Origin: Peteryoungia ipomoeae | GTDB lineage: Bacteria > Pseudomonadota > Alphaproteobacteria > Rhizobiales > Rhizobiaceae | Direction: 5' to 3' | Length of the DNA stretch: 64,000 bases | Assembly: GCF_004912165.1 (NCBI RefSeq) | Contig: NZ_STGV01000005.1 | Location: forward strand, 186,001-250,000 | Position numbers and translations under genes: made by a program | Shown: one piece after another, positions 6,363 to 49,902 of the stretch | Layout: the number at the start of each line of letters is the position of its first letter | How positions within the stretch are numbered: position 1 is the first letter of the stretch | Notes under the pieces: model-generated | Databases searched by the model: none | What the model was told of the DNA's origin: nothing | Seen by the model: only the letters and a program-made list of their open reading frames with translations

Positions 6363-7541
6363 TCAGGCGGCAGCCTTGGCCAGAGACGCCTTCTGCGTCT
6401 CATAGGCGAAGGAGAGCCACGGCATCAGGGCCGCCATGTCTGCAGTCTCGATGGTGGCACCGGCCCAGATACGAAGGCCGGCCGGCGCATCGCGGTAAGC
6501 GCCGATGTCGAAGGCGACACCCTGCTTCTCGAGAATGCTGGCAATGCCCTTGGCAAACGCGGCCTGCGCATCGGCATCGAGCGCGGTCACTTGGGGATCG
6601 ACGATCTTGACGCAAACAGACGTGTTGGAACGCGTCGCATCGTCGACGGCCAGGTTTGCGATCCACTCATTGGCGGCGATGAAATCGAAGATGACCTTGG
6701 CGTTGGCATCGGCACGCGCGATCAGGGCTTCGAGACCGCCGATCGACTTCGCCCACTTCAGCGCATCGATATAGTCCTCAACGCAGAGCATCGACGGCGT
6801 GTTGATGGTTTCACCGACGAAGATGCCTTCGATCAGCTTGCCGCCCGAGGTCATGCGGAAGATCTTCGGCAGCGGCCAGGCCGGGACGTAGGTCGTCAGG
6901 CGCTCGACGGCGCGCGGCGACAGGATGATCACGCCATGACCGCCCTCGCCGCCCAGAACCTTCTGCCAGGAGAAGGTGGTGACATCGAGCTTTGCAAAAT
7001 CGAGATCCTGCGCGAAGGCCGCAGACGTAGCGTCGCAGATCGTCAGGCCCTTGCGGTCGGCGGGGATGAAATCGGCATTCGGCACGCGAACGCCAGAGGT
7101 CGTGCCGTTCCAGGTGAAGACGACGTCGCGGTCGAAATCGACGGCAGCGAGATCAGGCAGAAGGCCGTAATCGGCATTGAACTTGCGGACATCGGCAAGC
7201 TTCAGCTGCTTCACCACATCGGTGACCCAGCCGGCGCCGAAGCTTTCCCAGGAGAGCATGTCGACGCCACGTTCGCCAAGCAGCGACCACAGGGCCATCT
7301 CGACGGCGCCCGTGTCGGAAGCCGGAACGATGCCGATGCGGTAGTCAGCGGGAACATCGAGAATTTCGCGGGTAAGGTCGATGGCCAGCTTCAGTTTTTC
7401 CTTGCCAACCTTGGCGCGGTGCGAACGACCGAGCGGGGCATCGGAAAGCGCTTCGAGCGACCAACCGGGGCGCTTCGAGCAAGGGCCAGACGAAAAATGC
7501 GAGTTTGCCGGACGCGCGGCGGGGGCGACGATATCAGCCAT
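6363..7541 (-). CDS. serC: phosphoserine aminotransferase
   Basis: SerC transfers an amino group from glutamate to 3-phosphohydroxypyruvate, the second step of serine synthesis. The 392-residue product, from ATG 7541 with GGAAGG upstream, is of the alphaproteobacterial class-V aminotransferase type. Visible features are the [12 protein letters not shown]-terminus, the ATSAAF cofactor-binding stretch near residue 171, and the PLP lysine K194 in [14 protein letters not shown]. An in-frame extension to 7922 runs through the structured leader and is not credible. It is followed directly by serA. Confidence 0.96.
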
Positions 7542-7565
7542 ATAGATACCCTTCCAGGTAATTAG

Positions 7566-7618
7566 CCTCTCGTTGGGGAGAGGTGTCCCGCCGTCGGAAC
7601 TACTCCTGTCGCCTCCCC
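7566..7618 (-). promoter_or_regulatory. structured serC leader (candidate serC RNA motif)
   Basis: The leader of serC can fold in two exclusive ways. One is a hairpin CCTCTC-cccaac-GAGAGG (minus strand, 7583-7566) ending 25 bases before the start codon. The other pairs GGGGAGG (7618-7612) with CCTCTCCCC (7583-7575), closing over an inner hairpin GTTCC/GGGAC (7600-7585). A conserved RNA element called the serC motif is known upstream of serC in Rhizobiales; this position and fold fit, but I cannot compare with the consensus here. Confidence 0.55.
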
Positions 7619-8667: not shown

Positions 8668-8682
8668 TTAAGTCCGGCTTAA
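8668..8682 (-). promoter_or_regulatory. CtrA box (TTAA-N7-TTAA) upstream of the Omp25-like gene
   Basis: TTAA-GTCCGGC-TTAA is a perfect full site for the cell-cycle regulator CtrA, about 88 bases before the start codon of the Omp25-like gene. CtrA is known to control Omp25 in Brucella, so regulation of this gene is a reasonable inference. Confidence 0.6.
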
Positions 8683-35583: not shown

Positions 35584-35639
35584 CATGGCTCGGAAGCCGA
35601 AAGTGCGATCCACGGCAACCGATGGAGATTTACGATCCT

Positions 35640-35805
35640 GGGTGCCTACAAACGTAGGTGGGCGCCATATGTCCAAGCCCACGGGCCTGGTCAGGGACAG
35701 CTCCCTTTGGATCGAGTATGGCCCCAGGGATTGTGGTTCCTGTCGAGAGGCGCAGACCGCATCCAAGATATAGGTGCTTTGCCGCCGGAGCGCCAGCCCC
35801 GATAA
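35640..35805 (-). ncRNA. ssrS: 6S RNA (SsrS), approximate ends
   Basis: Directly downstream of zapA on the same strand lies a gene-free stretch of about 245 bases with many short complementary segments. In minus-strand orientation the central part has GGGGCC facing GGCCC, and CACAATCCCTGG and AGGGAGCTGTCCCTG blocks flanking a poorly paired zone, compatible with a long hairpin with a central bubble; flanks CC(T)ATAT and ATATGG can pair. The zapA-ssrS-fau order is the known location of 6S RNA in alphaproteobacteria. Identification is by position and shape; ends are estimates. 6S RNA binds the housekeeping RNA polymerase in stationary phase. Confidence 0.65.
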
Positions 35806-47537: not shown

Positions 47538-48833
47538 ATGAGCCGTAACCTGCTTCCTGTGATGGCCCTGCTTCTGGGCACGCTTTTCCTGTTTCTCGGA
47601 AACGGTCTGCATGGCCTGCTTCTGCCTGTGCGCGGCGCAGCCGAGGGCTATTCCAACGAAGTTCTCGGCCTGCTCGGCACCACCTGGGCCAGCGGATTCG
47701 TGCTCGGCTGCTTCGTCGCACCGCAGCTCGTGATGCGCGTCGGCCATGTGAGGGCCTTTTCGGCCTTTGTCTCGCTGATTTCGGTGACCGCCCTCCTCAC
47801 CGGCATCCTCGTCGATTCCTACTGGTGGGTGGCCTTGAGGATCATCACAGGCTTCTGCACGGCGGGAACCTCGATGATCATCGAGAGCTGGCTGAACGAG
47901 CGCGCCACGAATGAAAGTCGCGGCATGATCTTCTCCTTCTATATCTCCATCACGTTGATCGGCGTGGTAGGCGGTCAGATGCTGGTCGGCGTGTTCGATC
48001 CGCTGACCTCGATCCTCTTCATGATCTGCGGCATCGTCTATGGCATCGCCGTCCTGCCAACCCTGATGTCGAAAGCTGCCACACCGCAGCCGCTGAATTC
48101 GATCACGCTCGATCTGCCGCTGCTCTATCGAAACTCGCCGGTATCCTTTGTCGGCATCCTGCTCGTCGGCATAGCCAACGGTGCCTATGGTACGCTTGGC
48201 GCCGTCTTCGGCGCCCGCGCAGGGCTCGATGCCGGCACGATCGCCATCCTCTTGTCGATCACCATTTTCCTCGGCGCCGTCATGCAGTTTCCGGCCGGCA
48301 AGCTCTCCGACCGCATTGATCGCCGCTATGTGCTCGCCGCCCTCGCCTTGATGGCCTCCCTTGCTGCTCTGGTGCTATTCGTCTTCGCGCCGACCGATCC
48401 CTTGCAGATCTTCATCTTTGTCGGCATCTACGGCGCGGCAGCCAATGCGCTCTATCCGATCGCCGTTGCGCATGCGAACGACTTTGCCAAGTCGGATGAG
48501 TTCGTGAAGGTTTCCGGCGGCCTGCTCCTGCTTTTCGGCATCGGCACGATCATCGGCCCGACGATCGGCGGCCCCGTCATGACGGCAGCCGGGCCCTACG
48601 CCCTCTTTGCAGTGACGGCCATCGCGCATCTCTCGATCACCGCCTATGCCCTTTACCGCAGCAGGCTGCGGGCCGCCATCCCGGCAGAGGATCGCGAAAA
48701 CATGCCGAACCTGCCGCTCAGCGCCTCGCCGATGTCGACCCCTGAAAGCTTGACTCTCGACCCTCGCGCCGCTCCTCTGGAGGAGACGGTCGAGGCAACC
48801 GAGGACGATGAACGTGCGGAGGAACGGGTATGA
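47538..48833 (+). CDS. major facilitator superfamily transporter
   Basis: A 431-residue MFS protein with 12 predicted helices from LLPVMALLLGTLFLFLGNGLHG to about residue 385, a central polar loop near residues 180-200, and MFS motif A-like GKLSDRIDRRYVLA after helix 8. A long acidic C-terminal tail (residues ~390-431, EETVEATEDDERAEERV) is unusual. The substrate is unknown. The stop overlaps the start of the DUF1192 gene (ATGA). Confidence 0.92.
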   Translation: MSRNLLPVMALLLGTLFLFLGNGLHGLLLPVRGAAEGYSNEVLGLLGTTWASGFVLGCFVAPQLVMRVGHVRAFSAFVSLISVTALLTGILVDSYWWVALRIITGFCTAGTSMIIESWLNERATNESRGMIFSFYISITLIGVVGGQMLVGVFDPLTSILFMICGIVYGIAVLPTLMSKAATPQPLNSITLDLPLLYRNSPVSFVGILLVGIANGAYGTLGAVFGARAGLDAGTIAILLSITIFLGAVMQFPAGKLSDRIDRRYVLAALALMASLAALVLFVFAPTDPLQIFIFVGIYGAAANALYPIAVAHANDFAKSDEFVKVSGGLLLLFGIGTIIGPTIGGPVMTAAGPYALFAVTAIAHLSITAYALYRSRLRAAIPAEDRENMPNLPLSASPMSTPESLTLDPRAAPLEETVEATEDDERAEERV

Positions 48834-49024
48834 ATGACGATCAGGAACGCAGCACAAAAACGACGCGTCACGAGATCGGGTCTGATCTCTCCGCTATTTC
48901 GCCGGACGAATTGCGCCTGCGAATCACTGAGCTTGAGGCGGAAATCGCCCGCATCAGCGCGGAACTTGCGCAGAAGGAAGCCAGTCGCCGGGCCGCTGAC
49001 AGCTTCTTCACCCCCAAAGTATAG
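48830..49024 (+). CDS. DUF1192 family protein
   Basis: A 64-residue protein with a disordered start and a C-terminal coiled coil (LSAISPDELRLRITELEAEIARISAELAQKEASR), ending in SFFTPKV as DUF1192 members do in Rhizobiales. Translationally coupled to the MFS gene. The function is unknown. Confidence 0.85.
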   Translation: MNDDQERSTKTTRHEIGSDLSAISPDELRLRITELEAEIARISAELAQKEASRRAADSFFTPKV

Positions 49025-49084
49025 GGATGATATCTCCTCATTTTCTCGTGATTGATCCACAAGAAATCACAGAAAGCTTATGCA

Positions 49085-49099
49085 TTAACGCTTCATTAA
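49085..49099 (+). promoter_or_regulatory. CtrA box (TTAA-N7-TTAA) upstream of the sRNA candidate
   Basis: TTAA-CGCTTCA-TTAA, a perfect full CtrA site, about 40-50 bases before the likely 5' end of the downstream small RNA. A further TTAA lies at 49111. Confidence 0.6.
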
Positions 49100-49132
49100 T
49101 CGTTTTCGTATTAACTACGTTCATCCAGTCTC

Positions 49133-49217
49133 CTGGATTCAGACGGTTTCTCCGTGAGGGTCAGGTCTGATTTTCTCCCTGTTTTACCTTCAGAGCCGCA
49201 ATTGCGGCTCTTTTTTT
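49133..49217 (+). ncRNA. candidate trans-acting sRNA (MmgR/suhB-motif-like)
   Basis: Between DUF1192 and rcdA a compact stretch has sRNA shape: a small hairpin ACGG-tttct-CCGT, an unpaired pyrimidine-rich region (TTTTCTCCCTGTTTTACC) that can act as an anti-Shine-Dalgarno seed, and a perfect intrinsic terminator AGAGCCGCAA/TTGCGGCTCT with seven T's (49192-49217). There is no gene ending just before that would need this terminator. Size near 80 bases, location beside a DUF1465 gene and the CU-rich loop match the rhizobial MmgR (alpha-r8, Rfam suhB) sRNA as I remember it; the 5' end is estimated. Confidence 0.6.
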
Positions 49218-49253
49218 GCGTATCGCAGCAGCGTTACCGCAAAATTGTGGGAA

Positions 49254-49268
49254 TTAACCCTTCCTTAA
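49254..49268 (+). promoter_or_regulatory. CtrA box (TTAA-N7-TTAA) upstream of rcdA
   Basis: TTAA-CCCTTCC-TTAA, a second perfect CtrA site, 119 bases before the rcdA start and just after the sRNA terminator, where the rcdA promoter should lie. Confidence 0.62.
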
Positions 49269-49386
49269 GATACGTCTTGCGGATTTTCGGTAATGGTAGC
49301 ATCTTGCCCCCTACCAAAAGAGGCAGGAACAAGTCCACGACGCTGTCGTTACATGCTTCAGTGATGTGTTTTACAGGAAAGCTCTC

Positions 49387-49902
49387 ATGTCGGAACTCGG
49401 AGTGAATACGGTCAGCTTTGCCGGAAAGGCAGCAGCGTCCAGCCAGTTCAAGTCGACTTATGCCGAAGGCATGGGCCTGGTCGAAGAAACCGCGAGCTAT
49501 CTCGATGGTCCTGGCCGAGCTGCAGCAAAGGTTCTTCCGCGTCAGGCCTCCGTGCTCTACGCGGCTGAATCCATGCGCCTCACCACGCGCCTGATGCAGA
49601 TGGCATCCTGGCTCCTGCTTCAGCGCGCCGTCAACAATGGCGAGATGAGCCGCGACCAGGTGATTTCGGAGAAGAGCAAGGTTCGTCTCGACGGCTTCAA
49701 TGTGGATCGTGCCGCTCCTGGCTGGAACGACCTGCCGGAATCCTTCCGTGACCTCGTGGAGCGCTCTCTGCGCCTGCAGAACCGCATTTCTCTCCTTGAC
49801 CGCGAGATCTACCGTCCCGAAGAAGAGATCATTCACCCGGACAATGAAAACAGCGTCCAGGCTCAGCTTAATCTTCTGCGCACCGCGTTTAACGCCGGCT
49901 GA
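49387..49902 (+). CDS. rcdA: DUF1465/RcdA family protein (regulator of CtrA degradation)
   Basis: A 171-residue helical protein of the DUF1465 family, which contains Caulobacter RcdA, an adaptor that helps ClpXP degrade the cell-cycle regulator CtrA. Core segments are TYAEGMGLVEETASYLDGPGRAAA, ESMRLTTRLMQMASWLLLQRAV and FRDLVERSLRLQNRISLLDREIY. The start MSELGVNTVSF (ATG 49387, AGGAAAG upstream) is preferred over ATG 49366. The disordered C-terminal tail seen in Caulobacter RcdA is short here, so adaptor details may differ. Preceded by a CtrA box. Confidence 0.85.
   Translation: MSELGVNTVSFAGKAAASSQFKSTYAEGMGLVEETASYLDGPGRAAAKVLPRQASVLYAAESMRLTTRLMQMASWLLLQRAVNNGEMSRDQVISEKSKVRLDGFNVDRAAPGWNDLPESFRDLVERSLRLQNRISLLDREIYRPEEEIIHPDNENSVQAQLNLLRTAFNAG

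Follow-up and report, generated by a model that had tools for sequence, protein, structure and literature searches.

A candidate CtrA-controlled small RNA of the BjrC1505 type upstream of rcdA in Peteryoungia ipomoeae

The intergenic gap upstream of the rcdA homologue of Peteryoungia ipomoeae probably carries two transcription units with one CtrA site apiece, in which a distal box drives a free-standing, trans-acting small RNA (sRNA) and a proximal box modulates rcdA; we put the probability of this reading at about three in four. The boxes are present and their conservation is specific to their spacing, and the sRNA has a conserved structure, is linked to rcdA and survives in genomes in which no DUF1465 gene was found. 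We infer that the sRNA is transcribed, that CtrA activates it and that it acts in trans. Judged by sequence comparison, it is a strong candidate for a place in the cell-cycle circuit. Throughout, the window is the whole stretch of DNA analysed, 64,000 nucleotides from contig NZ_STGV01000005.1, to which coordinates refer. A sequence-only reading of this DNA had proposed feedback through rcdA and a link of the sRNA to the cell cycle. The genomes compared call for the opposite weighting: it is the box of the sRNA that is widespread, and that of rcdA is largely confined to the window's family.

The rcdA locus

The gap at 49025-49386 measures 362 bases from the stop of a DUF1192 open reading frame (ORF) to the ATG of a DUF1465 ORF. 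The latter had been named rcdA from its sequence, and the name is upheld by its DUF1465 domain and by a match to the solved structure 3ctw, which is named RcdA (E 3.6e-31). Its product is 83% identical to the DUF1465 protein of Sinorhizobium meliloti, and the two genomes share a gene order of MFS transporter, DUF1192, DUF1465, rpmE (reversed) and ABC transporter. In the S. meliloti record used (CP090106.1; L085), the rcdA locus is borne by a 3.7-Mb replicon titled plasmid pSymB; the chromosome would be expected, and the label may be wrong. The features of the locus are as follows.

48830-49024, plus strand: DUF1192 gene, the upstream neighbour (ORF; PF06698, E 2.4e-18)
49085-49099, no strand assigned: distal CtrA box TTAACGCTTCATTAA, assigned to the putative sRNA promoter (exact TTAA-N7-TTAA)
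49110-49115, plus strand: putative -10 element for the sRNA, TATTAA (TATnAnT in the promoter consensus of a chosen subset)
49119-49218, plus strand: candidate BjrC1505-type sRNA of about 100 nt, 5' end predicted (RF02356 match, model R1, folding z, covariation)
49123-49138, plus strand: stem-loop 1, ATCCAG/CTGGAT (fold; covarying in alignment A2)
49139-49170, plus strand: stem-loop 2, TCAGA/TCTGA (consensus fold; covarying in A2)
49175-49182, plus strand: unpaired core CTCCCTGT, a candidate pairing seed (alignment A1)
49192-49218, plus strand: intrinsic terminator, 8-bp stem and T tail (covariation alignment; terminator scan)
49254-49268, no strand assigned: proximal CtrA box TTAACCCTTCCTTAA, assigned to the putative rcdA promoter (exact TTAA-N7-TTAA)
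49276-49302, plus strand: putative rcdA promoter, CTTGCG (49276-49281) and TAGCAT (49297-49302), from conserved columns
49387-49902, plus strand: rcdA homologue, DUF1465, 171 aa (PF07323, E 1.3e-58)

Identity and structure of the sRNA

An sRNA-like element had been noticed between the boxes, and the candidate is borne out in sequence comparison by its fold, covariation, terminator and near-cut-off match to an Rfam family. In a permissive Rfam scan, BjrC1505 (RF02356) is matched over its full length by 49077-49217 (45.7 bits, E 1.3e-7), collinearly across model positions 1-140 and with the conserved stems, core and terminator; the opening positions of the model are the CtrA box. The curated threshold of RF02356 is 50 bits, above the score of the window element, which is therefore filed by homology and place as a divergent BjrC1505 relative, outside curated-threshold membership. 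Two other RNAs of the window, both on the minus strand, score above their Rfam cut-offs: 6S RNA (35603-35761) and a serC leader (7541-7593).

The 100-nt element has a folding z of -4.53 and folds better than 200 of 200 shuffles; the minimum-energy fold of the window sequence itself lacks the conserved stem-loop 2. Alignment A2 (97 chosen loci, including one evident false row, L080:2980-3075) has compensatory changes in all 19 pairs of the sRNA proper, with 95.8% of cells paired and a covariation score of 0.403, compared with 0.163 for shuffled and at most 0.079 for slid alignments; A2 was fitted to the model, so these counts lean towards it. Of the 30 rows of A1, 29 share the core CTCCCTGT and one has TTCCCTGT; order-wide the core is mostly CCTCCCTGT, with few exceptions. 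The unpaired pyrimidine-rich stretch of the consensus holds CUCCCUGU, again in 29/30 rows of A1. No sigma-70 site for the sRNA promoter was found by a simple scan. A GANTC methylation site near the RNA start appeared conserved by eye in a column-trimmed alignment and occurs in 40/79 Rhizobiaceae loci; it was dropped at 12/113 order-wide (control stretch: 1). A count on alignment rows gave 17/98.

Distribution of the sRNA and linkage to rcdA

Among 199 genomes of the order, RF02356 is matched at E 0.01 or better in 172 and above its cut-off in 143, and DUF1465 is present in 178. Among the matches listed, the sRNA lies upstream of DUF1465, on the same strand and within 3 kb, in 124 of 128 pairable rows, with a median distance of 223 nt from sRNA end to DUF1465 match. 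This count draws on 151 RF02356 rows from the 149 genomes listed, with the row of the window's own genome included, and 23 rows have no listed DUF1465 partner. The four exceptions are second copies in G022 and G088, and copies in G007 and G181 on contigs other than that of rcdA. These two RF02356-like second copies (L376 in G088, L377 in G022) lie apart from rcdA; neither has an exact box, and a GTTAACAC-type sequence precedes the copy in L377.

Because RF02356 contains the box, its use in assessing the promoter would be circular; a promoter-less sRNA model, R1, was therefore built from 30 Rhizobiaceae sequences and searched in loci chosen by DUF1465 alone. R1 matches at E 0.05 or better were obtained in 72/80 and 41/49, together 113/129, rcdA loci or genomes, the window's own excluded. 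All 113 are on the strand of rcdA, 149 to 549 bases before the DUF1465 match. The four weakest (L206, L214, L234 and L235, of one family) are probably false.

Such constant order, strand and distance would suit an element that is a 5' leader or attenuator of rcdA, with one CtrA promoter at the distal box and partial termination before the gene, as would the multiple start sites of rcdA orthologues in three agrobacterial lineages (PMC10469942). Against this stand the terminator, the separate conserved proximal promoter region of Rhizobiaceae and the retention of the RNA where rcdA was not found, so that we regard a leader or attenuator as improbable. The sRNA occurs INDEPENDENCE from rcdA in six genomes of the order that have RF02356 and in which no DUF1465 match was found. 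The box is at its expected place in all six, exact in G015 and G119 and with one mismatch in G109, G110, G136 and G180. A class sample yielded RF02356 in 40 of 241 genomes (three of them from the order itself), 13 above the cut-off. Among 17 out-of-order loci (of 19 class loci examined), RcdA was found by tblastn in nine and not in eight, within the stretch searched and with a single query that could miss a divergent RcdA; one of the eight negatives is near a contig end. The box is exact in five of these eight loci (L284, L285, L286, L288 and L296). The control genome Caulobacter carries DUF1465 and has no RF02356 match at E 0.01; at E 1 the model matches Caulobacter, Escherichia coli and five other controls, which marks that level as noise.

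CtrA boxes in the window and across the order

Both boxes had been called perfect TTAA-N7-TTAA sites, and both have zero mismatches. The accompanying claim that such sites are rare stands against dinucleotide shuffles of the window (3 perfect sites, 0.04 expected) and is much weaker genome-wide, where 4.39 Mb hold 35 perfect sites and 27 of the reversed pattern, which makes a lone perfect match weak evidence. The GC content of the gap is 0.448 compared with 0.607 for the window, which favours AT-rich motif matches inside the gap, and with the rarity argument weak the case must rest on comparison, where conservation is strong. The third perfect site of the window (8668-8682), with another TTAACC nearby, lies upstream of a minus-strand ORF (8580 to 7741) that by eye resembles an Omp25/Omp31-type outer membrane protein, possibly a CtrA-controlled porin.

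The AT-richness of the gap and the modest genomic enrichment are also what one would expect if the TTAA pairs were AT-rich promoter sequence with no CtrA role. That explanation is very unlikely, given how specific the pattern is to its seven-base spacing and how little the spacer itself is conserved. The 130 order-wide rcdA upstream regions used (from 150 listed DUF1465 rows, without G034 and the last 19) hold 70 TTAA-N7-TTAA sites, in 59 regions; in the same regions, other spacings from 3 to 13 give 0-9 sites and permuted four-base words 2-14. Within Rhizobiaceae, the best 80 of 543 loci by RcdA query were taken, and 79 were usable, the contig of the other stopping short. All 79 have the sRNA core; their distal box is exact in 48 cases and has one mismatch in 30 and two in 1. 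Its spacer is nearly free, with 46 distinct seven-base sequences in these loci. In S. meliloti both boxes are exact and flank the sRNA; their starts are 174 bases apart, compared with 169 in the window. None of the closest relatives by RcdA (L005-L023) has an exact distal box; among the matches listed, these have one mismatch.

For each of the 113 loci with an R1 match, the best box in the 130 bases upstream was taken: 53 are exact, 54 have one mismatch and 6 have two. Control spacers of 3-6 and 8-11 at these loci give 0-4 exact boxes and 20-44 with at most one mismatch. Of the 107 boxes with at most one mismatch, 80 start at -34 or -35 from the R1 model start. The suggestion that CtrA controls the sRNA gains weight from a box that recurs across the order at a nearly constant distance from the candidate RNA start, and in these comparative data both boxes behave as CtrA sites. 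The regulator itself is widespread: the window's own genome encodes CtrA (NF045991, E 2.4e-127, at G000:C19:153852), and 59 of 61 sampled genomes, this one included, have CtrA above the model cut-off. The two misses are G008 (best E 3.3e-53) and G010 (a shorter match, 308.7 bits). G008 keeps DUF1465 and has neither a CtrA-grade match nor RF02356, a single case of co-absence that fits a link and proves nothing.

The box region as DNA

Rfam counts the box as part of the RNA; were transcription to start upstream of the box, the promoter reading would fail. RNAalifold predicted no pair in the box region, either on the 113 promoters plus the window or on alignment A3, a chosen, register-consistent set of 61 (the window and 60 rows chosen from 107). 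The stems that Rfam draws there have 43.6% of cells paired, compared with 43.0% after shuffling, and their covariation score is reached by 45 of 500 shuffles. With this lack of structure, and the compensatory changes in the sRNA proper, the box is conserved as DNA and the remainder as RNA. The A3 consensus reads GTTAACC-N5-TTAA-n-CTTT followed by TATnAnT, and its sharpness is that of the chosen subset, since groups with the box at -38 to -41 were left out. Positions 1-45 of the RF02356 model seemingly take in the CtrA-box promoter as RNA; as the order-wide alignments have no structure there, the boundary of the Rfam family may need revision.

The proximal box and regulation of rcdA

The proximal box lies just upstream of the conserved CTTGCG/TAGCAT pair and is exact in all 79 Rhizobiaceae loci. 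Across the order, only 11 of 113 loci have it exact: 6/6 in the window's family (f1) and 5/107 elsewhere at scattered distances. CtrA motifs before rcdA had been predicted earlier by comparative genomics (PMC2877005), in S. meliloti (PMC3616915) and in agrobacteria (PMC10469942), all three studied lineages of which have several rcdA start sites. When the boxes are compared with published S. meliloti ChIP-seq, a check that the sequence-only reading had proposed, CtrA is found at the rcdA promoter (PMC4433202). Given the 174 bases between box starts, this peak could report either box.

The conserved Rhizobiaceae box and the ChIP-seq occupancy lend some credit to a loop in which CtrA activates rcdA from the proximal box and is in turn degraded with the help of RcdA. 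In Caulobacter, CtrA activates rcdA, as stated in PMC4433202, and in S. meliloti rcdA is essential and its overexpression lowers CtrA, which supports a role of RcdA in CtrA proteolysis (PMC4433202). The same study found no significant change of rcdA on CtrA depletion, by microarray or qPCR, and its authors consider CtrA regulation of rcdA not to be conserved from Caulobacter (PMC4433202). The negative feedback loop that had been proposed for the window finds no support, in the form proposed, in this S. meliloti result. The scarcity of the proximal box outside the window's family also speaks against the loop, as do its only 5 distinct spacers in the 79 loci, since conservation of the promoter as a whole may account for part of that of the box. 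We consider activation of rcdA through this box doubtful. Under the preferred reading of two transcription units, CtrA driving the sRNA could explain CtrA binding at the S. meliloti rcdA promoter with rcdA unchanged. The terms 'sRNA', 'small RNA' and 'non-coding' are absent from the main text of PMC4433202.

Proposed mechanism and target tests

CtrA usually activates from a position about 34 to 20 bases before the transcription start. The distal box would occupy such a position, about 34 to 20 bases before the predicted start of an independent, roughly 100-nt sRNA of the BjrC1505 type. Phosphorylated CtrA would switch this sRNA on late in the cell cycle, and transcription would stop at its own terminator. 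The RNA may then act in trans through its unpaired C(C)UCCCUGU core, which is anti-Shine-Dalgarno-like and would suit ribosome-binding sites, probably by covering them. With the proximal box, for the most part an acquisition of the window's family, CtrA would sit immediately upstream of the rcdA promoter and may modulate rcdA weakly or conditionally.

Four leaders (rcdA, ctrA, gcrA and a CarD-type gene) gave no order-wide pairing signal with the sRNA core. Core duplex energies were at chance, with z values of 0.53 for ctrA (21/30 leaders), -0.06 for gcrA (23/30) and 0.00 for rcdA (118/130) and a mean z of -0.02 for CarD-type genes (27/40); these are rough means against mononucleotide shuffles, and the remaining leaders had no core to pair. 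ACAGGG is present in 70/83 Rhizobiaceae rcdA leaders and in 10/130 order-wide stretches, and the window leader has ACAGGA. The core could pair with ACAGGG; this motif might just as well be a plain ribosome-binding site. In the window's genome, a CarD-type regulator (PF02559 match, G000:C18:317236) has in its leader AACAGGGAG, complementary to the core, 12 bases before its ATG (G000:C18:317170-317193). Among the matches listed, this sequence is repeated within the genus (L264, L266, L269, L271, L273 and L274). Order-wide, ACAGGGAG is present in one of 40 CarD-type leaders, that one belonging to the window's family, with some start codons guessed. As no tested leader pairs order-wide, the targets of the sRNA may turn over or lie elsewhere.

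Relation to known systems

BjrC1505 is like the window element in its full-length match, stem order, pyrimidine core, terminator, CtrA-like box at the 5' end of the model and place before rcdA. It differs in that the window element scores 45.7 bits, below 50, and in that Rfam counts the box as RNA, which the alignments here do not support. The accessible parts of the literature on BjrC1505 and RF02356 revealed no link to CtrA or rcdA; one paper found names BjrC1505, in a Herbaspirillum table. In Bradyrhizobium, BjrC1505 was reportedly detected by blot by Madhugiri and colleagues (RNA Biology 2012), with less in nodules, and a lower level there would fit the loss of CtrA. No S. meliloti name for an sRNA at the rcdA locus was found in the parts of the literature covered. 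Identity with GspR (SmelC775) was rejected; the window element is flanked by DUF1192 and DUF1465, both on the plus strand. Sm5/SmelC778, of plausible coordinates, was rejected as it sits between dapF and ffh, and MmgR (RF00519) was rejected at 25.7 bits against a cut-off of 41.

Among sRNAs tied to CtrA, CcnA of Caulobacter is the nearest functional analogue, likened on grounds of function. This non-coding RNA is reported as putatively under CtrA activation and linked to the CtrA circuit; it differs in that its gene is at the replication origin and it targets ctrA and gcrA, and its authors report no clear CcnA-like homologue in S. meliloti (PMC8959179). The ctrA and gcrA leader tests were negative for the window sRNA. 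GspR is likewise an sRNA of a rhizobial CtrA network, in Sinorhizobium, and differs in lying between SMc03844 and SMc03845 with an overlapping antisense transcript (PMC5928217) and in its likely restriction to Sinorhizobium. The proximal box, in turn, matches the CtrA site at rcdA of S. meliloti and Caulobacter, a known prediction and ChIP target; the S. meliloti case differs in that rcdA does not respond to CtrA depletion and in that the published account, as far as it bears on this site, does not mention the sRNA box.

Implications

CtrA-tied sRNAs have so far been described for a single species or genus (CcnA, GspR). A more tentative and broader possibility is that BjrC1505 is an ancestral CtrA-activated sRNA of the order, that CtrA occupancy at the S. 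meliloti locus mainly serves the sRNA and not rcdA and that the RNA feeds back on the CtrA network at the post-transcriptional level, as CcnA does, through changing targets, which in Rhizobiaceae may include the rcdA ribosome-binding site. If true, CtrA binding without regulation at S. meliloti rcdA would be explained, and sRNA pairing at the rcdA ribosome-binding site would stabilise CtrA. The puzzle of CtrA at the S. meliloti rcdA promoter that leaves rcdA unchanged is thereby made directly testable. An sRNA that has a near-fixed CtrA box in most sampled genomes of a large order, beside the gene for the degradation factor of CtrA, would, if this reading is true, give the alphaproteobacterial cell cycle a conserved arm of post-transcriptional control.
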